Virus record (IMG/VR): IMGVR_UViG_3300025154_001031
Span: 1-64,000 of that record
DNA: 64,000 nt
Direction: 5' to 3' (one strand)
Source: a virus
Part shown: positions 9,722 through 37,244 of the stretch, in pieces
How the letters are laid out: every line of letters starts with the position of its first letter
Position numbering within the stretch: the stretch's first letter is position 1
Notes under the pieces: model-generated
The model's database searches: none
The model's input: the letters and a program-made list of their open reading frames with translations, nothing else
Told to the model about the DNA's origin: nothing
Position numbers and translations under genes: made by a program

Positions 9722-10798
9722 GTGGGCGAAACTACTGCTGTAGCCATTAGATCTGATTTTGATTTAACCGCTAAGGTGGAGGAACTGAGGAATAAAAAAT
9801 TTAACATCCTTCTACCGACCACGACTTTTGCAAGTCAATCAGAACTTTATGTACCGAGACTGGATATAGTGATACCGGAAGGCATAAAAGGCGGCGACTT
9901 CTATGCTCAGAGTAATAAAAATATTGGCACAGAGGAAAAGAAGGTTTGGGTTAAGCCTATGGCTCCTTCAGCACAGTTTTTAAGCAAGGTTGCTTCAGCC
10001 GCAAACATTCAGTGGCACCCGGATAAAAGCTGCCATACCCTCATAGAAAAAATGCGGGTTGTGTATAAAGCGGTAGCTGCCATTCGTCAGGCAGACGGAT
10101 CCTGGAGAATTATTACGGATGAGTATGAGCTTGACCTTGAAGTAATTGAGGAAGAGCTGAATGTGGAATATAAGAAAAAGTCGCGATTCAAAGACTTTCA
10201 AGAGAAGATGAAAAAGGAATGCATGACGGTAGAGGATTACGTTAGGCGGGATCTTCTGCAGAAGCGCAAGCATAAACTGGCTTTAGCTAGCACTGGTGCA
10301 ATGAACCGAGTTATCAGAAAGGCTTTGACCCTGAAAAACACTTACCTGCCGGACGAGGCCAAAAACCCTTTTGCCATAGCAAAATTTGACTTTCAGCCTG
10401 ACTTTAACGACCCGACAGGTAAGTGTTTTTCTTCAATGGCGGCAGTTCGGGCGCAGAATGATCTGTTTGGCGGTGGTGGCTTAGAAATGCCTTTGGGCGC
10501 TACGGAAGAGGATAACCAAGCTGCCGCAGAGTTCGGTGATAGCGGTACTGGGAAAGTCATTGACATTAAGGCAAGTGATTATGACGGTAATACTAGCGGG
10601 GATAATTATTCAGGTAGCGGTGCAGGTGAAGATCCCTTTGCTGGCATGATTTTCTGCCAGCATTGCGGCGAGGAAATACAGGGTAGTGGTAAGAGAACTC
10701 CAGAGGCTATAAAGGATTATTCTGAAAGAACCTTTGGCGGGAAAGTGTACTGCCTTGAATGTCAGAAGGAAGCCAGGGCCGGGAGGATCGCATCATGA
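9722..10798 (+). CDS. Putative phage recombination protein with C-terminal zinc ribbon
   Basis: A 358-residue protein that I cannot place with certainty. The central part (residues 60-235) is alpha/beta, with a charged helical stretch and the segment NTYLPDEAKNPFAIAKFDF. A Gly/Asp-rich low-complexity linker (about residues 255-310) follows, then a zinc ribbon (CQHCGE ... CLECQ). It lies directly before SbcD and SbcC with a 4-base ATGA overlap, the usual place of a single-strand annealing or ssDNA-binding partner in phage recombination operons. GTG start. Annealase is a hypothesis from context, not from a recognised motif. Confidence 0.45.
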   Translation: MGETTAVAIRSDFDLTAKVEELRNKKFNILLPTTTFASQSELYVPRLDIVIPEGIKGGDFYAQSNKNIGTEEKKVWVKPMAPSAQFLSKVASAANIQWHPDKSCHTLIEKMRVVYKAVAAIRQADGSWRIITDEYELDLEVIEEELNVEYKKKSRFKDFQEKMKKECMTVEDYVRRDLLQKRKHKLALASTGAMNRVIRKALTLKNTYLPDEAKNPFAIAKFDFQPDFNDPTGKCFSSMAAVRAQNDLFGGGGLEMPLGATEEDNQAAAEFGDSGTGKVIDIKASDYDGNTSGDNYSGSGAGEDPFAGMIFCQHCGEEIQGSGKRTPEAIKDYSERTFGGKVYCLECQKEARAGRIAS

Positions 10799-11988
10799 GG
10801 ATAGCACATTTGGCGGACATGCACTGGGGTATGAATTACCCCGGTCCTAGTCCCGAAAGCCGGTTTGATGATATTTCAAGAACTATGGACTGGACAGCGG
10901 ATCGAATTATTGAAGAAAAATGCGATCTGGTTCTTGTGGCCGGTGATGCGTTTAAGGATTCGAGGGTATTTTTAGACCGGGCTAGCCTGGAAATTAAGGC
11001 GTTTGTTGCCTGGTTAAGGAAGGTAAGTGCTGCAGGAATAGATGTTGTAGCTATCAGCGGAACACCTAGTCATGATGCAGTGGCAGCCTATGAATTAATT
11101 AAGGAAATGCGAATACCGAGGGTTTGCATTGAGACTACTCCCAGGGTAGTAAAGCATTTAGTGGACATTGCCTGCATCCCCGGTTTAAACCGTTCCAACC
11201 TGGTCACACAAGAGGAATACCGTACTATGTCTGCAGCTGAAATCCACAGAATTATGACGGGGAAAATAACACAATTAGCGATTGGGATGCGGTCTCAGTG
11301 CGGAGGAGTGCCGATTCTACTGACACACATGGCCTACCAGGGGGCAGATACCGGATATACAGACTTAATGATGCAGAATGAACCGGTACTGATGCAAGAG
11401 GCGGTGAATGGATATAGTCTGACATGCTTGGGGCATATCCACAGACCGCAACAGATAGGCGAAACAGTGTTTTATTCCGGAAGTCCGGAGCGGCTAAGTT
11501 CCCACTCCGAGCATATTAAAACAGGCTTCTGGATACATGAGCACAACGGCAATGGGTTTGATTCAAGGTTTATCGAAACTCCTGCCAGGCGGTACTGTAC
11601 TTTAGAAGTTGATTTTAGTCAGTACGGTGACCTTAAAAGTGCTATGGAGTGGGAACTTGCAGGGATGAGCGAGGAAGGATTCGGGGAGTTGCTATTATTT
11701 CCAACTACCGGAGCTATAACTAGGTTGAAGTACAGATGCACGGAAGAGCAGGCTAAACTCCTTTCCCGTAAGGCTATCGAACACACGCTTTACAAGGGCG
11801 GCGCTTACTTTGTATCAGAGATAAAGGCCGATATCGAGAGGCAGGATCGGGCAAGGGACAGGGAAGTAACCGAGTCATTAGGACCTATAGAGGCGCTGGC
11901 CAAATGGGCTGAAAAGCAAGGTATTGCCAGTGAGGAAATAACCACCTTGCAAAGCATGACTGCCAGCTTAATGGAGGTGGTAGCGTGA
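10795..11988 (+). CDS. sbcD: SbcD/Mre11-like DNA nuclease
   Basis: A calcineurin-like metallophosphoesterase that with SbcC would open and trim DNA ends during phage recombination or replication. Metal-binding motifs in order: HLADMHWG (residue 4), VAGDAF (about 48), SGTPSHD (about 94, replacing the usual GNHD), LTHMAYQ (about 180) and CLGHIHRPQ (about 216). At 397 residues it is normal size. The ATG at 10795 overlaps the stop of the upstream gene, with GGAGG just before. The SbcC gene overlaps its end by 4 bases (GTGA), so expression is coupled. Confidence 0.88.
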   Translation: MRIAHLADMHWGMNYPGPSPESRFDDISRTMDWTADRIIEEKCDLVLVAGDAFKDSRVFLDRASLEIKAFVAWLRKVSAAGIDVVAISGTPSHDAVAAYELIKEMRIPRVCIETTPRVVKHLVDIACIPGLNRSNLVTQEEYRTMSAAEIHRIMTGKITQLAIGMRSQCGGVPILLTHMAYQGADTGYTDLMMQNEPVLMQEAVNGYSLTCLGHIHRPQQIGETVFYSGSPERLSSHSEHIKTGFWIHEHNGNGFDSRFIETPARRYCTLEVDFSQYGDLKSAMEWELAGMSEEGFGELLLFPTTGAITRLKYRCTEEQAKLLSRKAIEHTLYKGGAYFVSEIKADIERQDRARDREVTESLGPIEALAKWAEKQGIASEEITTLQSMTASLMEVVA

Positions 11989-14534
11989 TACCGCTGAGAA
12001 TTGAAGCCAGAAACTTTGGGGCATTGAAACAGGTTGACGTGAGGCTTGACAACGTAAATCTTGCTGCCGTGGTTGGTGTAAACGGGATCGGCAAAAGCAC
12101 ATTATTCACCATAGCACCGTTATTTGCTCTTTTCGGTGAGGTAAAAAGAAACTGCAGCATTGATGACATGGTTAAGTCAGGAGAGCAGGACTGTTATGTA
12201 AGCCTTGAATTTGAGCATAGGGATAAGGTGTATCGCGTAACCAGAACACGTTCATCTAAGGGTAGAGGTAAAAGCACGTTGGAATTGCAGAGATTATTGC
12301 CAGACGGGCAGTGGGGAAAATTAACCGGGGATACTGTCAGAGAAACTGACGAAAAAATACGGGAACTTTTAAGCTTAGACGCTGAGACTTTTACTGCTTC
12401 GTCAATGGTATTGCAGGGACGGGCGAATGAATTCACCAACAAGCCTGCAGGTCAACGGAAGTTAGTTCTTGGGCAGATTCTTGGACTAAGTATCTATGAG
12501 AGATTGCAGGAAAAATCCCGAGAGAATGAGAGAACGGCCACCAACAAAATTGAGAAGCTAAAAGCTAAGAAATTAGAACTGGACATAAGGATTGGAGCTT
12601 TGCCTCAGATTGAAAGTGACATTAAGAACACCAAGAAAGAACTAGAAAAGGTTGCTGCTGATATTGTCGCCGGTGAGTCTGAACTAAAGGAAGTTGAGAA
12701 CGCAGTCAGGGACGTTGAAGCTAAAAAAATAAAGTTTGATGAAATCAATGCACAGGTTAAAACCTTGGATGATGAAATATTCACTAAGGGCGTAGAGAGG
12801 TCGGAGCAAGAGAAAAAGCTTAGGCAGGCCATAACTGCAATTAGCATGGAGGATGAGGTACTAGCTAAGGCAGAAAAACATGAGCAAACTAAGCAGCAGA
12901 TTGTCTTGCTAGAAGTCAAGGAACCTCAGTTAAACATCTTGGCCAATAAAAGATACACTCTTGCTGATAATATAAAAACAACCCAGGACAAGCTATTAGC
13001 TCTACAAGAACGCATAAAGAAGGGCGTAGACCTTATTGCCAGCCTGGAGGCATTCAAAAAGGAAACCGAAGAATACCCAGCCTTGGTTAAGAAATTAGAA
13101 GAACTTGACGTTTTAGCCGAGAAGGATGCCGCTTTAAAGCTACGATATACGGTAGCTAAGAATAGCTTTACCGACAAAAGTAACGCAATGCACTATAAAG
13201 AAGACATCCTAAATGCTGAAATAAAATCTCTCGAGGTAAAAGTAGCACTACTTAACGACAGTAACTGCATAGACCCTGAAAAGGCTGCTTGTAGGTTTTT
13301 GGCCGATGCAGTTAAAGCTAAGGCACGGTTGACAGAGGCGCAAGAGGAATTAAAAGCGCTGGATTGGTCGGAGTGCCAGAGGCTGAATAAAGTTGTGTCG
13401 GACATCAAGAAAGAAATGGATGAACTTAACTATAACGTATCTGACCACAAAACAACAAAAGAAAAGGTTAAGATATTGGCCACCAAGGCTGAGAAGGTAG
13501 CTAAACTTGCCAGCAGTGAAGAGCTCTTAAACAACCTTCGGGAGCAGGAGCAGGACTTACTACAGGCCATAGAACAGTTGAACATTAAGAAAAATGATGC
13601 TGATGAGAAGGTTGCGGCCTTGTCTGATGAACTTAAGAGACTGCCATACTTAAGAAATCTTTTAACCTACCTTGAACCGTGGTTGAAACTGAAAGATGAA
13701 CTGCCGGTTCAGAAGCAAAACAAGGAAAACGCTCAGGAAAAAATAGCAGCCATCACTACTGAAATAGCAGATAAAACATTCAGAAGATCATGTCTGGTGG
13801 TAGATAGTTTTGAGATCGAGGATGAAATTAAAAGCCTGCCAGTTAAGCAGGGATTGGTAAGGAAACTGGGTGATGCACTGCAAACACTAAACACTAACAG
13901 AGACTCATTAAATAATCGCTCAGGTGCTTTAAAAGCGAAGCTGGAGGCATTGGAGCAGGATAAACTTGAGCAAGACAAGCTAAACGTAGAACTGCAGTCG
14001 TTAGCCAAAGAATTAACCAGGTGGCAGACGTTATACAAAGCTTTCGGCAGGGATGGGATCCCGGCACTGATAATTGAAAATGCGGTACCGGAACTTGAAC
14101 GGATAGCTAACGAAATTTTAGGCCAGATGAGTAAAGGCGAACACTCCCTGAGATTTGAGACCCAGCGGGAGCTAAAGAGCAAGGCTGGTGTTTCTGAGAC
14201 TCTTGACATTATAGTTAGCGACTGGGCCGGTGAAAGAGTATATGAAACTTTTAGCGGTGGTGAGCAGCTTAGGATTGATTTTGCAATACGGTTTGCACTG
14301 GCTGAGCTCTTAGCACGGAGGGCCGGGGCAAAGATTGAGTGGCTAACGGTTGACGAGGGCCTTGGTAGTCAGGATGCAGAGCATAGAGGGTTGGTCCTGG
14401 AGGCTATAAAGGCTGTGGCTGATAGATTTAAGAAAACGCTGGTTATTACACACATCGAGGAAGCTCAGGCGGTATTTGAGCAGAAGATTTTATTTGAAGG
14501 TAAGGACCATGGGGTTAGTGTAACCGTGGCATAA
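11985..14534 (+). CDS. sbcC: SbcC/Rad50-like ATPase
   Basis: The SMC-like partner of SbcD. Walker A is GVNGIGKST at residues 31-39. Two long coiled coils span about 190-420 and 450-640, around a hinge with CIDPEKAAC near residue 427. The ABC signature FSGGEQLRIDF is near 755 and Walker B LTVDEG near 787, followed by the D-loop GSQD. The hinge cysteines are spaced C-x7-C rather than the classical CxxC zinc hook, so metal-mediated dimerisation may differ. GTG start overlaps the sbcD stop. A length of 849 is slightly short for SbcC, as usual in phages. Confidence 0.88.
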   Translation: MIPLRIEARNFGALKQVDVRLDNVNLAAVVGVNGIGKSTLFTIAPLFALFGEVKRNCSIDDMVKSGEQDCYVSLEFEHRDKVYRVTRTRSSKGRGKSTLELQRLLPDGQWGKLTGDTVRETDEKIRELLSLDAETFTASSMVLQGRANEFTNKPAGQRKLVLGQILGLSIYERLQEKSRENERTATNKIEKLKAKKLELDIRIGALPQIESDIKNTKKELEKVAADIVAGESELKEVENAVRDVEAKKIKFDEINAQVKTLDDEIFTKGVERSEQEKKLRQAITAISMEDEVLAKAEKHEQTKQQIVLLEVKEPQLNILANKRYTLADNIKTTQDKLLALQERIKKGVDLIASLEAFKKETEEYPALVKKLEELDVLAEKDAALKLRYTVAKNSFTDKSNAMHYKEDILNAEIKSLEVKVALLNDSNCIDPEKAACRFLADAVKAKARLTEAQEELKALDWSECQRLNKVVSDIKKEMDELNYNVSDHKTTKEKVKILATKAEKVAKLASSEELLNNLREQEQDLLQAIEQLNIKKNDADEKVAALSDELKRLPYLRNLLTYLEPWLKLKDELPVQKQNKENAQEKIAAITTEIADKTFRRSCLVVDSFEIEDEIKSLPVKQGLVRKLGDALQTLNTNRDSLNNRSGALKAKLEALEQDKLEQDKLNVELQSLAKELTRWQTLYKAFGRDGIPALIIENAVPELERIANEILGQMSKGEHSLRFETQRELKSKAGVSETLDIIVSDWAGERVYETFSGGEQLRIDFAIRFALAELLARRAGAKIEWLTVDEGLGSQDAEHRGLVLEAIKAVADRFKKTLVITHIEEAQAVFEQKILFEGKDHGVSVTVA

Positions 14535-28458: not shown

Positions 28459-29430
28459 ATGTCAGATGTAGACTGGAAAATAATCCGAGAAGAATTTAAA
28501 AGCACAGATATATTGCTCAAGGATTTAGCAACCAAGTATGACCTTAAAGAAGGTACTGTCCGCAGTCGAAAGAACCGAGAAGGATGGGTTCGCGTTGCAA
28601 CGCAGGGCGATAATGCAATGCAACGCAACGCAGATACATGTAACGTTACAGAGATCGTTGCAACGCAGGAAAAGCCGGAGCCCTTCCCCGGCCAGTGCGA
28701 AGCTATCGGCCATAAGTCTGGTGAAAGGTGCAAGAATAAAGCCTTGGATGGTGAACGCTTCTGTAAGGTCCACCTTGATGGATGGGAAGGTCAGTGTACA
28801 GCTCAATCGAAACAGACCAGGGAGCGCTGCAAGAAGAAGGCGGAGCCCGGTAAAGATAAATGTAAGTTTCACGGGGGGAAGAGTACCGGGCCACCACTGG
28901 GTAGTAAGAACGCTCTAACCCATGGAGCATATGAAACTATTTGGATGGATCAATTAGACGATGAGGAGCAGGAACTTGTAAAATCAGTGGTTCAGGACAA
29001 GATAAAATTATTGGAAGTAGATATACAGCTTTTGGCTATCCGCGAAAGGCGTATGATGAAACGAATAGCTAATCTTGCAGGACTTGACTATACGGTAGTA
29101 AAACTTAGGTACGAAAAGGGCGAAAGTCCTATGGGCCATATAGATAAAGTAAGCAAAGAGGAGCAAGCCACCTTAGGCCAGATACAAGAAATTGAGCGAG
29201 AACTAACCAAAGTTCAGGCTGAGTATACAAAAAAGATAGCTCTAAAACATAAAATGGAAATGGATATACAAGATATGGAGCTTAGGAGAGAAAAGCTTGA
29301 ACTGGACAAGAAAAAGGCGCTAAAAGAAAGCGGTGATACGGATGGACAGAGGAATGAAGTAACCCTGACACCAGGAGAACGGAAGGTAAGAATTGATGAG
29401 CTTATCGCCAAAAGAGGAGCAAGAACTTGA
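28459..29430 (+). CDS. Terminase small subunit-like DNA packaging protein
   Basis: An N-terminal helix-turn-helix (STDILLKDLATKYDLKEGTV) is as in small terminases that bind the packaging site. Two tandem Cys/His units follow: CEAIGHKSGERCKNKALDGERFCKVHL and its partner from CTAQSKQTRERC to CKFHGG, cited here by their ends (residues 80-105 and 112-137). Next come GSKNALTHGAY, a landmark of this family, and a long helix. The zinc-finger-like double unit is widely seen in this type of small subunit. Overlaps the large subunit gene by 35 bases. Confidence 0.75.
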   Translation: MSDVDWKIIREEFKSTDILLKDLATKYDLKEGTVRSRKNREGWVRVATQGDNAMQRNADTCNVTEIVATQEKPEPFPGQCEAIGHKSGERCKNKALDGERFCKVHLDGWEGQCTAQSKQTRERCKKKAEPGKDKCKFHGGKSTGPPLGSKNALTHGAYETIWMDQLDDEEQELVKSVVQDKIKLLEVDIQLLAIRERRMMKRIANLAGLDYTVVKLRYEKGESPMGHIDKVSKEEQATLGQIQEIERELTKVQAEYTKKIALKHKMEMDIQDMELRREKLELDKKKALKESGDTDGQRNEVTLTPGERKVRIDELIAKRGART

Positions 29431-30961
29431 GAAACTACTCAAAGAAGAGAAACAAGATAGGGCCCGCGAAAAGTTAATTAATTTTACGACGTACACTTAC
29501 CCGAAATATCAAGTTAACTGGCATCACCGTATACTTTGTGATTACCTGGACCGTTTTGTTAGTGGGGATATAAAGAGGCTTATGGTGTTTATGCCCCCGA
29601 GGAATGGAAAGTCAGAGCTTGTTTCTCGCAGGCTTCCGGCCTTTATTTTAGGCAGAGACCCAAATGCAAGCATCATAGCGACAAGCTACACTGCTGACCT
29701 GGCAAGCATGATGAACCGGGATACTCAGAGGATAATTGATGATGATAAATACCTTGAACTATTCCCAAAGACAAGGCTTTTTGGTTCAAATGTTCGGACC
29801 GTAGCGAAGGGGAGCTATCTCAGAAATTCAGATATTTTTGAGATAGTAGGCCATAGAGGTGTTTATAAAAGCGCAGGTGTTGGCGGTGCCATAACAGGTA
29901 TGGGTTGTGTTTTTGGCATTATTGATGACCCGATTAAAAACAGGGCAGAGGCTGAATCTCCGACATACAGGAAAGGCCTATGGGACTGGTACACATCGAC
30001 TTTTTACACCCGCCTAGAAAAGGATGCTCGGGTGTTAATAACCCTCACGCGCTGGCATGAGGATGACCTTGCGGGCAGATTATTAAAACTTGCCCAAGAG
30101 TGCCCGGATGCAGACCAATGGACCGTAGTAAATTTTCCGGCCATTGCCGAAGATAATAGACATCCTGACGATCATAGAGAGACCGGGGAACCGCTGTGGC
30201 CTGATAAATACCCACTGAAAGAGCTTCTGAAAATGAAGGCGACAATGGGCAGTTATGAGTGGAACGCTCTTATGCAGCAACGCCCCAGTGTTGCCGGTGG
30301 CAATATATTAAAGCGCGAGTGGTGGAGATACTGGCAGATGTCTGGACAGGACTTACCCCCGGTTACTGTAAAGCTGCCGGATGGTGAGTTTATTTTAGTT
30401 TATCCGGAGAACCTACCACTTGGCTTTGACGAACAAATACAGTCCTGGGATATGGCCTTCAAGGACACAAAAATAAGTGCTTATGTGGTCGGGCAAACAT
30501 GGGGCAGAAAAGGCGCTGATAAGTACCTACTTGACCAAATAAGGGATAAGCTTGACTTTGTAAAAACGATACAGGCAGTCAGGACATTAACGGCAAAGTG
30601 GCCTAAGGCTATGGCAAAACTGGTAGAGGATAAGGCAAACGGGCCAGCGGTTATCTCAGCCTTGAAACGTGAAATAACCGGGCTAATTGAGGTAAAGCCT
30701 GATGGTAGTAAAGAAGCCAGGGCCTTTGCCGTATCGCCTCAGATAGAGGCAGGAAATGTCTATTTGCCCCATCCGATGATCTACGGCTGGGTAAATGACC
30801 TCGTCGAGGAAATGACCAACTTCCCGAATGGAACATACAAAGATCAGGTTGATACTCTGACGCAGGCCCTGTCAAGGATGGCCGGGAATAGAATACCGGC
30901 TAAAGACTTACTGGATGGCGTAAACAATCCGCGCAACGAATCGGCAAGTATGGGGTGGTAG
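29396..30961 (+). CDS. Terminase large subunit
   Basis: The DNA packaging motor. The ATPase part carries a variant Walker A PPRNGKSE (about residue 66), a Walker B-like GIIDDP (about 175) and the coupling region TLTRWHEDDLAGR. The RNase H-like nuclease part starts at QSWDMAFKDT (about 351) and carries further acidic residues (VEDKANG, and DQVDTLTQA near the end). A length of 521 is normal. The ATG at 29396 follows GGAAGGTAAG. Adjacent to the small subunit and portal, as usual. Confidence 0.9.
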   Translation: MSLSPKEEQELEKLLKEEKQDRAREKLINFTTYTYPKYQVNWHHRILCDYLDRFVSGDIKRLMVFMPPRNGKSELVSRRLPAFILGRDPNASIIATSYTADLASMMNRDTQRIIDDDKYLELFPKTRLFGSNVRTVAKGSYLRNSDIFEIVGHRGVYKSAGVGGAITGMGCVFGIIDDPIKNRAEAESPTYRKGLWDWYTSTFYTRLEKDARVLITLTRWHEDDLAGRLLKLAQECPDADQWTVVNFPAIAEDNRHPDDHRETGEPLWPDKYPLKELLKMKATMGSYEWNALMQQRPSVAGGNILKREWWRYWQMSGQDLPPVTVKLPDGEFILVYPENLPLGFDEQIQSWDMAFKDTKISAYVVGQTWGRKGADKYLLDQIRDKLDFVKTIQAVRTLTAKWPKAMAKLVEDKANGPAVISALKREITGLIEVKPDGSKEARAFAVSPQIEAGNVYLPHPMIYGWVNDLVEEMTNFPNGTYKDQVDTLTQALSRMAGNRIPAKDLLDGVNNPRNESASMGW

Positions 30962-30962
30962 A

Positions 30963-33473
30963 ATGGCAAGAAAAAACTTTGCAGAAGAAATAGGCTCAAT
31001 AAGCAGGTCCTTATTTAACCGGCTGTCAGATACGGAATACCTTTCCCTGTTGACCTGGCCGAATAGCATAACAACCTATGACAAGATGCGTCGGTCAGAT
31101 GCACAGGTACAAGCTTTGCTTTACTGCCTGGAACTGCCGATCAGGTCTACTAGGTGGTACGTGGAACCATACAATAAAAACAATCCTAAGGATGTTCAAA
31201 TAGCTGAATTCATCGAGGAAAACCTTTTCTCAGGGCCACCAAAAGGTATGACTGTACACTGGGATGATTTTTTACGACTGGCACTACTGATGTTCAGCTT
31301 CGGCCATAGCGTTTTTGAAAAGGTTTATGAGGTGGACAGTAAGGGGTTTGCTAAGTGGCGTAAATTTGCTGAGAGGCCACATGAGACAATTAAGGATTTC
31401 AAATACGACGAAAAAGGCGGACCACTGCACGTTGAGCAATACGTTGCAGGGGCTTCTTTTGTTGAGATGCCGGTGGACAACTGCCTAATTTTTACCCATC
31501 GGAAAGAGGGCGGGCGGCTGCATGGCATACCGGTACTGAGGGCGGCGTATAAGCACTGGTTTATCAAGGATTTTCTCTTAAAAATAACCAACATCGGCAT
31601 AGAAAAAAATCACGTAGGAACTCCTGCTATTAAACTACCAGAAACACCGCAAGAAGGAGATAAGGAAGAAGCTCAAAAAATAACCAGTAACCTACGGTCC
31701 GGGCAGGATGCCGGTGTTGTGTTGCCGCATGGCTTTACTCTTGAAATGTTCGAGGGTAAGCGGGTAGCTATTGAGGTTTTGCCCTATATCCAGTATCAAG
31801 ATCAGATGATCGCCAAGGCTGCCCTGGCTCAATTCCTACAGCTTGGTACTGGCAGTGTAGGCAGTTTTGCCCTGGGCAAAGACCAGAGTGACTTCTTTCT
31901 GATGTCGCTAAACTCTCAGGCTAAGTATGTTTGTGATACCGTAAACAGTTACGCTATACCTCAGTTGGTTGATTATAACTGGGACGTTGAGGGATACCCG
32001 AAACTGAGGTTTGAGAAGGTTGGCGGTAGGAATACCTCTGGAATTATCGAAGGCGTCAAAAGTCTTGTCGAAGGAAGAATTATTCTCCCTGATGATGGGC
32101 TTGAAAAGTATATGAGGGAACTTATGGAGTTGCCCGAGATTGATGAGGAAACAATCCGGGGAGGGCAGCAAGAAGCTTTTATACCTCCTAAGCCACCGAA
32201 GGAACCAGTGAAGGCAAGTGAGTTAATTAGGTTTAGTGAGAACTCAGCGGATGATTTTAAAAAAGTTAAAGCTCTAATTAAGTCACTAAGCGCAAAAGAA
32301 AAGGATTCTATTGGTCCTCGCTGGTTTTTTGATGATTCGCAGTACAGATATTTTTATGAGCAGGACAGTAGTATCGGGGGCTGCATTGAATGTCGATTAA
32401 TCGGCAAAAGGGCCTATCTAAACTTAATTGTCCACACTGATTTTAGAGGACAGGGATTAGCTAATAAGTTGACACAAAAGGCCATTAAGCAAATACCTGA
32501 AAAGTTCCCGGAGATAAAGAAATTCTATTGGTCGACTCATTCGGACAATGAAGCATCAATCCATATAGCTGAGAAGTATGGATTTGAGAAACATACCGAG
32601 GAGGGGAACGAAGTTCAGTATACTCTTGAATTAAGTGAATGCTGTAGCTGTGGTGGAACAAAAAAATTTGCTGAACCTGTATGGCGTAGGGACTTAACAG
32701 CTTACGAAAAAAGAATCAAGCTTTCCGAAATAGACCAAAAGTTTGACACCTCAGAAGAAGAGTTTGTCAAAAAGGGCATGGAGATCCTTGGTGAGCAGTT
32801 TGCGCCGTATTTAACGCAACTGGCCGCACTAATAACTGCAGGTAAGTGGGAAGAGGTAAGTCAGTTAGTGGTGGAAAGTGAACCATTGGCACAATTCATT
32901 AATGACTACCTTGCCGGGCTATTTGCTTTCGGTACAGAGCAGGCAGCGGGGGAACTTGAAACCGAAAAGCCTGGGGTACCGGATTTGAGCAAGCAGATAA
33001 TCGGGCTCCGTGCAGCAACCATAACAGAAAAGATAATTTCAGCTATGAGCGCTAAAGTTGTTTTTGATGTGCTGAATAGTGTTGAGGCGGGAGAAAAGCC
33101 AAAGGATGCCGTTAATGCTGCAAAGCAGAACATCGAGGACTATATGAAGAAGGAACTCGAGGGTCATGCAACCGTACAGACAGCCTGGGCGATAAATAGC
33201 GGTAGGGATTTTGTTGCCGAGGAGCAGGGAGTAAAGAGAATCCAATATTCTGCCATTTTAGATAAGCGCACCTGTCCCTTGTGCAAAAAGCTTGACGGGA
33301 TGATATTTAAGGCAGGTACGCCTGAGGCTAAGAGATTTAAGCCGCCGGTGCATCATAATTGCAGGTGCATTTTTGCCTACGTTATGCCGGAGGAGCAACC
33401 GCAGCCCGAAATAACATTTGAGCCGCCACCAGATGAATTGCTGCAGAAACACGGAAATCTAATAGCAAAATAA
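30963..33473 (+). CDS. Portal fused to a GNAT acetyltransferase domain and a MuF head protein
   Basis: One 836-residue protein with three parts. Residues 1-400 are a Mu gp29-like (DUF935) portal (RSDAQVQALLYCLELPIRSTRW is the start of its core, cited by residues 40-61; later GTGSVGSFALGKDQ). Residues about 420-560 are a GNAT-type N-acetyltransferase domain with the acetyl-CoA loop HTDFRGQGLANKL and the IHIAEKYGFEKH block. Residues about 640-836 are the MuF/SPP1 gp7 minor head protein with CPLCKKLDG and PPVHHNCRC zinc-type ends. Portal and MuF are usually separate genes, and a GNAT insert is not normal. No internal stop or frameshift is visible. It forms the DNA entry vertex of the capsid. Confidence 0.85.
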   Translation: MARKNFAEEIGSISRSLFNRLSDTEYLSLLTWPNSITTYDKMRRSDAQVQALLYCLELPIRSTRWYVEPYNKNNPKDVQIAEFIEENLFSGPPKGMTVHWDDFLRLALLMFSFGHSVFEKVYEVDSKGFAKWRKFAERPHETIKDFKYDEKGGPLHVEQYVAGASFVEMPVDNCLIFTHRKEGGRLHGIPVLRAAYKHWFIKDFLLKITNIGIEKNHVGTPAIKLPETPQEGDKEEAQKITSNLRSGQDAGVVLPHGFTLEMFEGKRVAIEVLPYIQYQDQMIAKAALAQFLQLGTGSVGSFALGKDQSDFFLMSLNSQAKYVCDTVNSYAIPQLVDYNWDVEGYPKLRFEKVGGRNTSGIIEGVKSLVEGRIILPDDGLEKYMRELMELPEIDEETIRGGQQEAFIPPKPPKEPVKASELIRFSENSADDFKKVKALIKSLSAKEKDSIGPRWFFDDSQYRYFYEQDSSIGGCIECRLIGKRAYLNLIVHTDFRGQGLANKLTQKAIKQIPEKFPEIKKFYWSTHSDNEASIHIAEKYGFEKHTEEGNEVQYTLELSECCSCGGTKKFAEPVWRRDLTAYEKRIKLSEIDQKFDTSEEEFVKKGMEILGEQFAPYLTQLAALITAGKWEEVSQLVVESEPLAQFINDYLAGLFAFGTEQAAGELETEKPGVPDLSKQIIGLRAATITEKIISAMSAKVVFDVLNSVEAGEKPKDAVNAAKQNIEDYMKKELEGHATVQTAWAINSGRDFVAEEQGVKRIQYSAILDKRTCPLCKKLDGMIFKAGTPEAKRFKPPVHHNCRCIFAYVMPEEQPQPEITFEPPPDELLQKHGNLIAK

Positions 33474-33737
33474 TCACCTGTTGGGATTAAGGGATCCGCC
33501 CGGGCGGCGCTGCCAGCGCTCTTGTACACGATCAAGCTGCTTCCAGATTAATGGGGCAAGGTGCCTTATCCTATCGTCATTGGTCATTTTGTCGAAGGGA
33601 TAGCCTCCAAAAAGCTCAGCAGCAATGTCTTCGTCAAGTCGGATGCTTATATCAACCTTTTTCTGTTTTGGCTTAACCCGTCCTTTTTGATCGGCACCAA
33701 ATTCTAGTTGGATTATATTCTTCTTTTTGGTCATCAT
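33474..33737 (-). CDS. Antisense moron gene in the head module, 87 aa
   Basis: A minus-strand gene set between two plus-strand head genes, with its own GGAG ribosome-binding site before ATG 33737. The 87-residue product is basic, with VDISIRLDEDIAAELFGG in the centre and helical ends, and its LDEDIA segment recalls short regulators of the ribbon-helix-helix kind. Its orientation suggests independent expression in the lysogen. It stops one base after the portal fusion stop. Function unknown. Confidence 0.55.
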   Translation of the reverse strand: MMTKKKNIIQLEFGADQKGRVKPKQKKVDISIRLDEDIAAELFGGYPFDKMTNDDRIRHLAPLIWKQLDRVQERWQRRPGGSLNPNR

Positions 33738-33814: not shown

Positions 33815-35290
33815 TTGGGAAAAGATGTTGATGGTAAAAATTCAAGTAAACGCTTTAAGGCAAAGAAGTCCTGGCTTATTCGTAAAGGCATGAGCGAGGA
33901 AGAAGCACACAAAAAAGCCCGTGCCTATGCCGGAGGTAAAACTTCGCCAAAGGCAGGACAATCTGAGGAACCTATTATTGAGGAATTTTCTGCCTACACT
34001 AACCTTGTCGAGCTACCGGAAGAGGTAAGGGGACTACTGCCAATAGAAGCCCAGGAAGTATGGATGCAAGCTTTTAATGCCTTAGTTGATGGCAAGGATA
34101 GGACGAAATGCGAAGAAAGCGCCTGGACAGCGGTAGAGGGCGCAGGATACACAGTTACAGTAAAGGCGAGTGAGGGAATGGGTAAGTTTCATGGATTAAT
34201 AGCTTTGGGTGAGGCTATGCTTACACCTGCACCGTCCGGAATGCAGTACTCGTCTACTTCGGTAGTTGAGATTATGCGGACAGGTCAATGGGAGCACCCT
34301 TTGTATGGCCCTCTCTCGATAACAGAAACAAGTATAGACGGATTTGTTGCTAATTTTTTCGCTAATGTCAGAGGTATTGATATTGCCGTAGACCAAGAAC
34401 ACAAGCCAGAAGAAGGTGCTATGGGATGGTTTAAAAAGCTCTGGAAAATACCCCGTGATGATGGCGACGGTTATAGTATGATGGCCGAAATACAATGGAC
34501 ATATCAAGGCGAGCAGCTGATTAGGGATGGTGTATATCGTTATTTTAGTCCCGAATTTCTTGAAAAATGGGAAGACCCTGAAAGTGGTCAGACGTATAAA
34601 AACGTTCTATTCGGGGGTGCCTTAACCAACCGACCGTTCATTAAAAACATGGACCCGATTCTTTTATCCGAGGAAGTCATGGAGACCCTCGGTTTTGTTT
34701 TAAAAGAAACCCAACCCGGGGGCAACCGGGATAAAAATAAAGGAGGTACAGACGTGAAACTTTTAGCAGAACACTACAAAGCCCTCGGGTTAAGTGAAAA
34801 TGCTACTGAGGCAGAAGTACTGGCTGCAATTGCTGCAGTAAGCAACAATCCTGCACCTGACAAGCAGGACAATACAGAGGTTGTGCAGTTGTCTGAGACC
34901 GTAAAGACAATGGGCGAACAGCTTACTACAGCTCAGGCAGAGATTAAAAAGCTGTCCGAAACCAATATTCTGTTGGCCGAAGCAGCTAAAGCCGTAAAAT
35001 GGGAGAGTATCTCTCAGAAGGCTTTTGCCGAAGGTCGCATGACAGTTGCACTGTCTGAGAAATTTAAGCCGCTGTTTATGGCAAACCCTGAAGCTATTGG
35101 GCCTATCATCGAGGAACTGCCCAAGGTTATTCCCGACGAAAGAGGACACTCTAACGCCGGTGGAGCAGCAGGGGACACTTCAAAGCTGTCTGAATCTCAG
35201 ATGGAGGTTGCTAAAATGCTGGGGCTTAGTGAGGAGCAAATGTTGAAGGGCGCTCCTGAATGGATGAAAGCCCAAGGAGGTAAGGAATAA
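33815..35290 (+). CDS. Mu I-like capsid protease with ChaB segment and in-frame scaffold
   Basis: Residues 60-110 form a ChaB-like segment (LPEEVRGLLPIEAQEVWMQA and following). Residues about 115-300 resemble the Mu I prohead protease, with AVDQEHKPEEGAMGWF and YRYFSPEF as its landmarks. The rest is a helical, Ala/Glu-rich scaffold. Inside the frame an AGGAGG (34741-34746) and GTG (34754) would start a 178-residue scaffold alone, as the Z protein arises inside Mu I. TTG start with GAGGAGGTGAG upstream. It processes the prohead before packaging (known for the family). Confidence 0.8.
   Translation: MGKDVDGKNSSKRFKAKKSWLIRKGMSEEEAHKKARAYAGGKTSPKAGQSEEPIIEEFSAYTNLVELPEEVRGLLPIEAQEVWMQAFNALVDGKDRTKCEESAWTAVEGAGYTVTVKASEGMGKFHGLIALGEAMLTPAPSGMQYSSTSVVEIMRTGQWEHPLYGPLSITETSIDGFVANFFANVRGIDIAVDQEHKPEEGAMGWFKKLWKIPRDDGDGYSMMAEIQWTYQGEQLIRDGVYRYFSPEFLEKWEDPESGQTYKNVLFGGALTNRPFIKNMDPILLSEEVMETLGFVLKETQPGGNRDKNKGGTDVKLLAEHYKALGLSENATEAEVLAAIAAVSNNPAPDKQDNTEVVQLSETVKTMGEQLTTAQAEIKKLSETNILLAEAAKAVKWESISQKAFAEGRMTVALSEKFKPLFMANPEAIGPIIEELPKVIPDERGHSNAGGAAGDTSKLSESQMEVAKMLGLSEEQMLKGAPEWMKAQGGKE
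34754..35290 (+). CDS. Internal in-frame scaffold protein (Mu Z-like)
   Basis: A perfect AGGAGG 7 bases before GTG 34754, in frame within the protease gene, should produce the C-terminal 178 residues separately. The product is helical with Ala/Glu-rich segments (NATEAEVLAAIAAVSN, VVQLSETVKTMGEQL), as scaffolding proteins are. In phage Mu the Z scaffold is made from inside I in the same manner. Confidence 0.65.
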   Translation: MKLLAEHYKALGLSENATEAEVLAAIAAVSNNPAPDKQDNTEVVQLSETVKTMGEQLTTAQAEIKKLSETNILLAEAAKAVKWESISQKAFAEGRMTVALSEKFKPLFMANPEAIGPIIEELPKVIPDERGHSNAGGAAGDTSKLSESQMEVAKMLGLSEEQMLKGAPEWMKAQGGKE

Positions 35291-36350: not shown

Positions 36351-37244
36351 ATGGCTGTAGTAACAAGTGATTTCCTTGTCGCAACTTACCAGGGCCTGCG
36401 GGCTATTTACGATGAAACCTTTGAAAATACCAAGCCGGAGTGGGACAAGATTGCCATGGAAGCCCCATCTACCACTGAATCTGAGGTTTACTCCTGGGTA
36501 GCTGAAGTCCCCGGCATGAAAGAATGGGTTGACGAGCGCACCTTGGAAGCGCTGAAACAGTTCAGCTTCACTATCAAAAACAAGGACTGGGAGTCTACCA
36601 TCCCAGTTGATCGCAACACTATGGAGGACAATAAACTAGGCCAGATCAAGCCGCGTATTCAAGACTTGGGCATGGCCGCTAAGACACACCCTGACGAGCT
36701 TGTATATACGCTGCTCGGCAACGGGTTTTCTAACACTTGCTTTGATGGCCAATACTTTTTTGATACCGATCATCCGTTGGCTGACGGTACTACCCAGAGC
36801 AATAAGTTAACTCTTGCCTTGGATGCTACTGGCCTACAAACGGCTCTTGCTATTGGCCGCAGGCTAAAAGGATACACCGGGCGGGCGCTTAATATCGTTT
36901 TCGACACCCTGGCTGTACCGCCTGAACTGGAAATCCCCGGCCGCAAGTTGCTTTTTGCTGATAAAGATAACTATGGAGCGGACAACGTCTTGAAAGGTGT
37001 TATCCCTAATCTGGTAGTCAATCCGTACCTGTCCGACACTAACAACTGGTTTATTTGCTGCACTAAGCGTCCGCTGAAGCCGATCATCTTGCAGATGCGG
37101 AAACGTCCCGAGTTTTTAGCTCTTGATAAGCCTGATGACTTCACTGTGTTTATGAAAAAGCAATTCTTGTATGGCGTTGATGCCAGATATAATGTCGGCT
37201 TTGGTATGTATCAGTTGGCCGTTGGCTCCGAAGTAGCTGCTTAG
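36351..37244 (+). CDS. Major head protein, Mu gpT-like
   Basis: Residues match the Mu gpT family: SDFLVATYQGLRAIYDETFE at the start, then VAEVPGMKEWVDERT, FTIKNKDWESTIPVDRNTME (20 residues) and the FFDTDHPLADG block. Forms the icosahedral shell. A length of 297 is normal. AAGGAGG precedes the ATG, and a hairpin follows the gene at 37258. Confidence 0.88.
   Translation: MAVVTSDFLVATYQGLRAIYDETFENTKPEWDKIAMEAPSTTESEVYSWVAEVPGMKEWVDERTLEALKQFSFTIKNKDWESTIPVDRNTMEDNKLGQIKPRIQDLGMAAKTHPDELVYTLLGNGFSNTCFDGQYFFDTDHPLADGTTQSNKLTLALDATGLQTALAIGRRLKGYTGRALNIVFDTLAVPPELEIPGRKLLFADKDNYGADNVLKGVIPNLVVNPYLSDTNNWFICCTKRPLKPIILQMRKRPEFLALDKPDDFTVFMKKQFLYGVDARYNVGFGMYQLAVGSEVAA

Follow-up and report, generated by a model that had tools for sequence, protein, structure and literature searches.

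A GNAT domain inserted between the portal and MuF parts of a Mu-type phage protein and flanked by candidate head-protease sites

Results

One reading frame codes for portal, acetyltransferase and MuF domains

The window, as we call the 64,000 nucleotide stretch of viral DNA that was analysed (positions 1 to 64,000 of record IMGVR_UViG_3300025154_001031, which is 67 kb long), contains an open reading frame of 836 codons on its plus strand (30963–33473). It starts with ATG, stays in one frame with no internal stops and codes for a protein of 836 amino acids (94.8 kDa) that consists of three parts. The portal part comprises residues 1–420 (30963–32222, plus strand), as defined by the match to Portal_Mu and by alignment with relatives that lack the acetyltransferase (GNAT) domain. 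Portal_Mu (Pfam, PF06074) matches residues 38–370 with an E-value of 7.6e-49; profile positions 3–320 of 336 are covered and the score of 167 bits exceeds the curated cut-off of 23.9. The inserted GNAT domain follows at residues 421–559 (32223–32639, plus strand; 139 amino acids, 16.2 kDa). Here, the Pfam model Acetyltransf_1 matches residues 453–541 (E 8.9e-12; 45.8 bits, curated cut-off 20.7), and three further Acetyltransf models of Pfam also exceed their own cut-offs. The MuF part comprises residues 572–836 (32676–33470, plus strand; 29.7 kDa) and is matched by Phage_Mu_F (Pfam, PF04233; residues 702–804, E 5.5e-14, 53 bits, cut-off 29.6) and by TIGR01641 of NCBIfam (E 6.6e-15). Its C-x2-C and H...C-R-C signatures are present as CPLC and HHNCRC, with the key residues invariant. 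PHROGs gives portal, acetyltransferase and head morphogenesis and agrees with Pfam on all three parts, while NCBIfam agrees on the MuF part and gives weak acetyltransferase matches. An earlier note on this DNA had read portal, GNAT and MuF in this order in one chain, which the profile matches and the single reading frame bear out. A structure prediction of the full chain modelled the portal core and MuF; the GNAT stretch had a pLDDT below 50 and was not usable.

The gene occupies the place of a portal gene, between the TerL gene upstream (29393–30961) and the protease, scaffold and capsid genes. The head protease and scaffold, which are of the Mu-like I type, are encoded at 33815–35290 on the plus strand (Mu-like_Pro, 3.9e-35, and motif count). 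Downstream of them lie a capsid gene of the Mu gpT type (36351–37244) and a structural protein. The neighbourhood of the chain is a normal Mu-type head module. N-terminal to the protease and scaffold, the product of 33815–35290 also has a ChaB domain (E 7.6e-9). An ORF on the minus strand (33474–33737), amid the late head operon, resembles a ribbon-helix-helix protein and has a weak match to the antitoxin BrnA. This antisense ORF was considered as a possible partner of the GNAT, either an antitoxin or an immunity protein, and rejected, because it is kept in L003, L004 and L009, which have no GNAT. A search for a defence-system match gave none. Elsewhere in the window (10759–14534) a gene pair resembles, by eye, a nuclease pair of the SbcD/SbcC type.

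The portal-MuF fusion is widespread and the GNAT insertion is not

Of 134 portal ORFs in a first set of related viral contigs, 74 also contain MuF. In a second set, which was retrieved using an alignment of such fusions, all 74 do; both counts include duplicates. The GNAT-less joining is identical in layout in L003, L004, L009, L005 to L008 and many others. Three of these, L003, L004 and L009, have 81–86% DNA identity over the shared parts and carry the same chain without GNAT. The two-part portal-MuF fusion is ordinary, and the GNAT insertion is the unusual part. The term "triple fusion" used in the earlier note is correct in that three domains are joined; it is overstated in that the joining of portal to MuF is common.

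The linkers between portal and MuF vary strongly in length and sequence. They are 18–99 residues long in the first set, except for the present chain (183) and L115 (369), and do not exceed 120 residues in the second set after dereplication. The L115 chain (L115:2754–6191), whose linker looks like a coiled coil, is the sole other long linker seen. No Pfam enzyme domain was found in this linker, and no second GNAT was found in the linker slot of the relatives. The insert is confined to one lineage in the collections searched.

The database search for the same fusion proposed by the earlier note yielded one other contig, IMGVR_UViG_3300001242_000321. It carries the same ORF with the same junctions, and its identity to the window is 100% across 13.6 kb. 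A second contig with the identical chain makes a random misassembly unlikely. The same joining without GNAT in many relatives, in the closest of which portal and MuF are likewise one chain, shows that the portal-MuF junction is not an assembly error. In addition, the frame is intact on both sides of the insert. The sole two copies are, on the other hand, completely identical over the 13.6 kb, and the two contigs may stem from related samples or from one viral population. Taken together, an origin of the chain by assembly or chimera formation, named earlier as what would refute the fusion, appears largely refuted and is very improbable.

Several other portal or portal-MuF chains have extensions. 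L183:5001–7796 and L196:745–3537 carry a RelA/SpoT-like domain C-terminally on portal-MuF chains, and in L165:1172–4411 (1080 amino acids) a Hint domain and a nuclease-like domain (DUF559/MTES_1575) come after portal and MuF. In the portal-MuF chain L189:966–4391, MuF seems to be interrupted by Hint/intein splicing domains (657–1031). The C-terminal extension of the portal-MuF chain L077:5938–8553 contains GHEAGH, a possible zinc metallopeptidase motif, and has no Pfam match. Two Mu-type portals (L012:4914–8285 and L017:4863–8345) have about 700 additional C-terminal residues that gave no Pfam match but one marginal one.

The GNAT insert is lower in GC than its flanks and has an acetyl-CoA loop

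On its left the insert borders on PVKASE and on its right on the ancestral stretch C-C-x-G-G...KFAEPVWRRDL, and the reading frame is preserved on both sides. Its GC content is 37.9% versus 45.9% and 46.3% in the flanks, and the hexamer AAGTGA is present at both of its ends. Judged from these features and from its absence in the close relatives, the GNAT domain is a recent in-frame acquisition. At a threshold of E 0.01, no relative of the GNAT was found in genome_contigs, in phages or, other than L002, in viral_contigs; weak matches only were obtained to Vibrio/Photobacterium plasmids and to a prophage SpeG. A whole-protein scan of genome_contigs, run with a view to the host, also gave no relative.

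The sequence R495-G-Q-G-L-A500 (32445–32462, plus strand), which aligns to SpeG, corresponds to the R/Q-x-x-G-x-G/A acetyl-CoA motif of the GNAT superfamily and represents the pyrophosphate loop. The N-x-x-[AS]...G-F motif is found as N529EASIHIAEKYGF541 (32547–32585, plus strand), likewise by alignment to SpeG. A tyrosine is the general acid of SpeG and RimI. The N-x-x-A-I-H-I-Y pattern that contains it in SpeG (NEKAIHIY) is not conserved in the insert, where the alignment places alanine 536 at this position. A single-sequence model of the GNAT domain is weak (pLDDT 62) and has a GNAT-like order of strands and helices except for the first strand. With this model Foldseek finds SpeG and Naa50 in the PDB (E about 1e-5, probability 1.00) with TM values of just 0.4–0.5. 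The earlier note had named the lack of an acetyl-CoA binding site in a structural model as refuting its reading; the acetyl-CoA motif is present in the sequence, although a reliable structural model of the site was not obtained. Binding of CoA by the domain is likely.

The closest solved sequences are spermidine acetyltransferases (PDB chain E 4e-6). SpeG- and RimI-like GNATs are the best solved relatives and share the fold family and the CoA loop; they differ by an identity of about 15–25% in the Foldseek alignments and by the catalytic tyrosine, which is alanine here. The NCBIfam SpeG model reaches 31 bits (E 1.7e-7) against an equivalog cut-off of 218 bits. The similarity to SpeG, which is the best at family level, would suit a GNAT that works in the producing cell before maturation, on head proteins, a host factor or polyamines, the fusion being a means of co-expression from the late operon. 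However, the late operon provides co-expression without a fusion, and the SpeG and RimI family models both score far under their curated cut-offs; we regard such a role as improbable.

It might also be that the insert is a recent passenger that serves no selected function and does no harm, since the linker would be removed in any case. The restriction to one lineage, the alanine at the general-acid position and the high variability of linkers in length and sequence point in this direction. The intact reading frame and acetyl-CoA loop of the GNAT speak against it, as do the enzyme domains (RelA/SpoT, nuclease) on other portal-MuF chains, and a passenger without function seems, if anything, still less probable than a role in the producing cell.

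Candidate head-protease sites at both edges of the GNAT domain

Head proteases of the T4 type cleave after short motifs that end in glutamate: T4 gp21 after L/I-X-E and SPN3US gp245 after A-X-E (PMC9026906, PMC10052503). In the present chain, candidate sites of this kind are ASE418–420 (32214–32222, plus strand) at the left edge of the GNAT, and LSE557–559 (32631–32639, plus strand) at its right edge. A further candidate, FAE569–571 (32667–32675, plus strand), directly precedes PVWRRDL, the conserved beginning of MuF. All three were assigned by motif. The linkers of L003, L004, L009, L005 and L007, variable in other respects, retain ASE or ATE at the ASE418–420 site, and FAE569–571 is conserved in L003, L004 and L009. 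A second motif on the left, FSE424–426 (32232–32240, plus strand), may belong to the first strand of the GNAT or to the linker. Since this applies to the whole sequence ELIRFSEN, the left cut could be at E420 or at E426. A distant phage encodes the same eight residues with different codons in the tail of its portal (L018:6091–6114); L018 shows no similarity to the GNAT. Further copies of the motif lie within the portal and the GNAT (IAE80–82, FAE135–137 and IAE535–537).

The pattern [LIFM][AS]E is found eight times in the portal-GNAT-MuF chain (2.3 expected from shuffled versions) and 12 times in the protease-scaffold protein 33815–35290 (1.8 expected), mostly in the scaffold half. These two proteins are the only ones in the window with a clear excess; one small gene (161 amino acids) has a P value of 0.04, with 84 tests made. 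When 35 protease-scaffold proteins were taken together, [LF][AS]E (LSE/LAE/FAE) was seen 146 times against 32.5 expected, and LSE ranks first among all tripeptides of the scaffold half (56 versus 5.7). In the same comparison, TerL and the major capsid protein showed no motif enrichment. The LSE repeats could be scaffold helices instead of cut sites.

In 41 dereplicated portal-MuF linkers, ASE is the most over-represented of all tripeptides (13 versus 1.3), and an [LFAIVMG][AST]E site is present in 32 of them, while shuffling gives 12.6. The candidate sites KASE420 and LSE559, which flank the GNAT, contain the top tripeptides of linkers and scaffolds, respectively. The motif class was first spotted by eye and the pattern was drawn partly from the linkers themselves; it was therefore retested on 39 linkers fetched afterwards. 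In this held-out set A[ST]E occurred nine times against 1.9 expected, a count reached in none of 2,000 shuffles. The broad pattern was more weakly enriched (22 versus 11.9), and [LF][AS]E was not enriched (3 versus 1.9), so that support for the right-hand LSE site comes from the scaffold motif. At the portal-MuF boundary the motif replicates in its ASE form, with the z-scores overstated because related sequences are not independent. A tie between the ASE of the linkers and the LSE of the scaffolds is plausible, if not proven. In Bacillus phages, MuF proteins that stand alone also have TSE or ASE directly before the domain. No consistent motif was found between MuF and the C-terminal payloads of other portal-MuF chains.

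Phage Mu has the same protease family and a similar gene content. Its scaffold Z (L206:4191–4742) contains LSA five times (0.2 expected), and the portal contains a single LSA in its C-terminal part, ending at residue 431 of 512, which is not unusual on its own (P 0.28). Protease I of Mu reportedly trims the portal (gpH) by approximately 10 kDa, from about 64 to 54 kDa. The 81 residues after LSA fit this trimming. The Mu pattern is consistent with the tripeptide repeated in the scaffold also marking the cut in the portal, and LSA431 is a candidate cut site. In Mu, portal and MuF are separate genes and a GNAT is missing.

The motifs flank the GNAT and recur at the portal-MuF boundaries of many relatives, an arrangement that favours cutting of the chain and release of the enzyme. 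The earlier note had suggested that about twelve acetyltransferases stay tethered at the DNA entry vertex, perhaps to modify capsid, host polymerase or ejected proteins, targets between which the sequence does not discriminate; the tether is less supported by this distribution of motifs. In an uncut chain, the GNATs would surround the portal crown inside the head, where they might act locally or on DNA and proteins as these leave; judging from known portal structures, in which the chain beyond the portal core comes after the crown, they would face the head interior. The continuous ORF and the dodecameric portal seen in phage JBD30 (PMC11445458) agree with such a ring. Apart from the motifs, the copy number of MuF speaks against it: the SPP1 protein (gp7) is present in just one or two copies per capsid (PMC5576092), and a permanent tether in 12 copies would be a departure from this. 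Furthermore, acetyl-CoA would presumably be scarce in a packed head. We consider a tethered ring unlikely, if less so than a producing-cell role or a passenger.

Discussion

The explanation that we favour, and to which we give about an even chance, is that the chain is a polyprotein: the GNAT would be loaded with the portal, freed by the head protease and ejected with the DNA. A free-standing GNAT gene would have been inserted in frame into the portal-MuF linker at a head-protease site, an insertion that left candidate sites at both edges of the domain. Assembly of the chain within the portal ring would place as many as about twelve GNATs inside the prohead, where the Mu-like I protease is predicted to cut after the x-x-E motifs KASE420, LSE559 and FAE571. 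The products would be a portal of 47.8 kDa, if the cut is after KASE420, a GNAT of 16.2 kDa and a MuF protein of about 30 kDa. The freed GNAT of about 16 kDa would remain in the head, exit with the DNA and, early in the infection, acetylate a protein or small molecule of the host. What the sequences show are the three domains, the motif enrichment and the recent acquisition of the GNAT in frame, with its lower GC content; cleavage, ejection, catalysis and the target of the GNAT are inferred. The alanine at the position of the usual catalytic tyrosine counts against this explanation, as do the motif copies within the portal and the GNAT and the inconsistent motifs ahead of the C-terminal payloads of other chains.

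A release of enzymes in the head has a precedent in T4, which delivers Alt and internal proteins after release by the head protease (PMC9026906). There, too, a head-targeting part brings the enzyme into the prohead, the protease frees it at x-x-E and ejection follows. The T4 proteins have short targeting peptides on separate genes, while here the proposed carrier is the portal itself and MuF lies beyond the payload.

Enzyme payloads on portal and MuF proteins have been described. According to Iyer et al., 2017 (PMC5512222), both are fused to effector domains and injection is predicted; the "polyvalent proteins" listed there include portals with PBECR, 2H and InPase domains and MuF with RelA/SpoT, and GNATs occur in other injected proteins, beside ART domains or in conjugative elements. 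MuF toxins are described by Jamet et al., 2017 (PMC5576092). Like these fusions, the present chain has an enzyme domain in one chain with head proteins of the portal-MuF module, a domain that is thought to be injected. Where its position is given in the papers or was seen in the contigs (Mu MuF-C, MuF toxins, chains with RelA/SpoT and nuclease domains), the payload is C-terminal, whereas here it is internal and flanked by candidate sites. The available parts of the two papers mention no portal or MuF chain with a GNAT, and in the literature searched we found no paper describing an internal GNAT in a portal-MuF chain. As payloads on portal and MuF are known, the new element is the internal GNAT between candidate protease sites.

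More broadly, portal-MuF fusions might be widespread head polyproteins whose linker, with its x-S-E protease site, is a cargo slot; an enzyme inserted there would enter every prohead and be excised and injected, and the GNAT would be the first cargo caught. We put this forward tentatively and with less confidence than the account of the single chain.

For many of the enzymes that phages inject, the domains are known but the route into the head is not. If the favoured explanation is true, the loading route is explicit: the portal carries the enzyme in and the head protease releases it. The enriched motif also makes a testable prediction for portal-MuF fusions generally: cutting should occur ahead of the MuF domain, at a defined x-S-E site. 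Such a cut would explain how a portal present in twelve copies can share a chain with a minor head protein. The arrangement also hints at a natural way of loading a foreign protein into phage heads.
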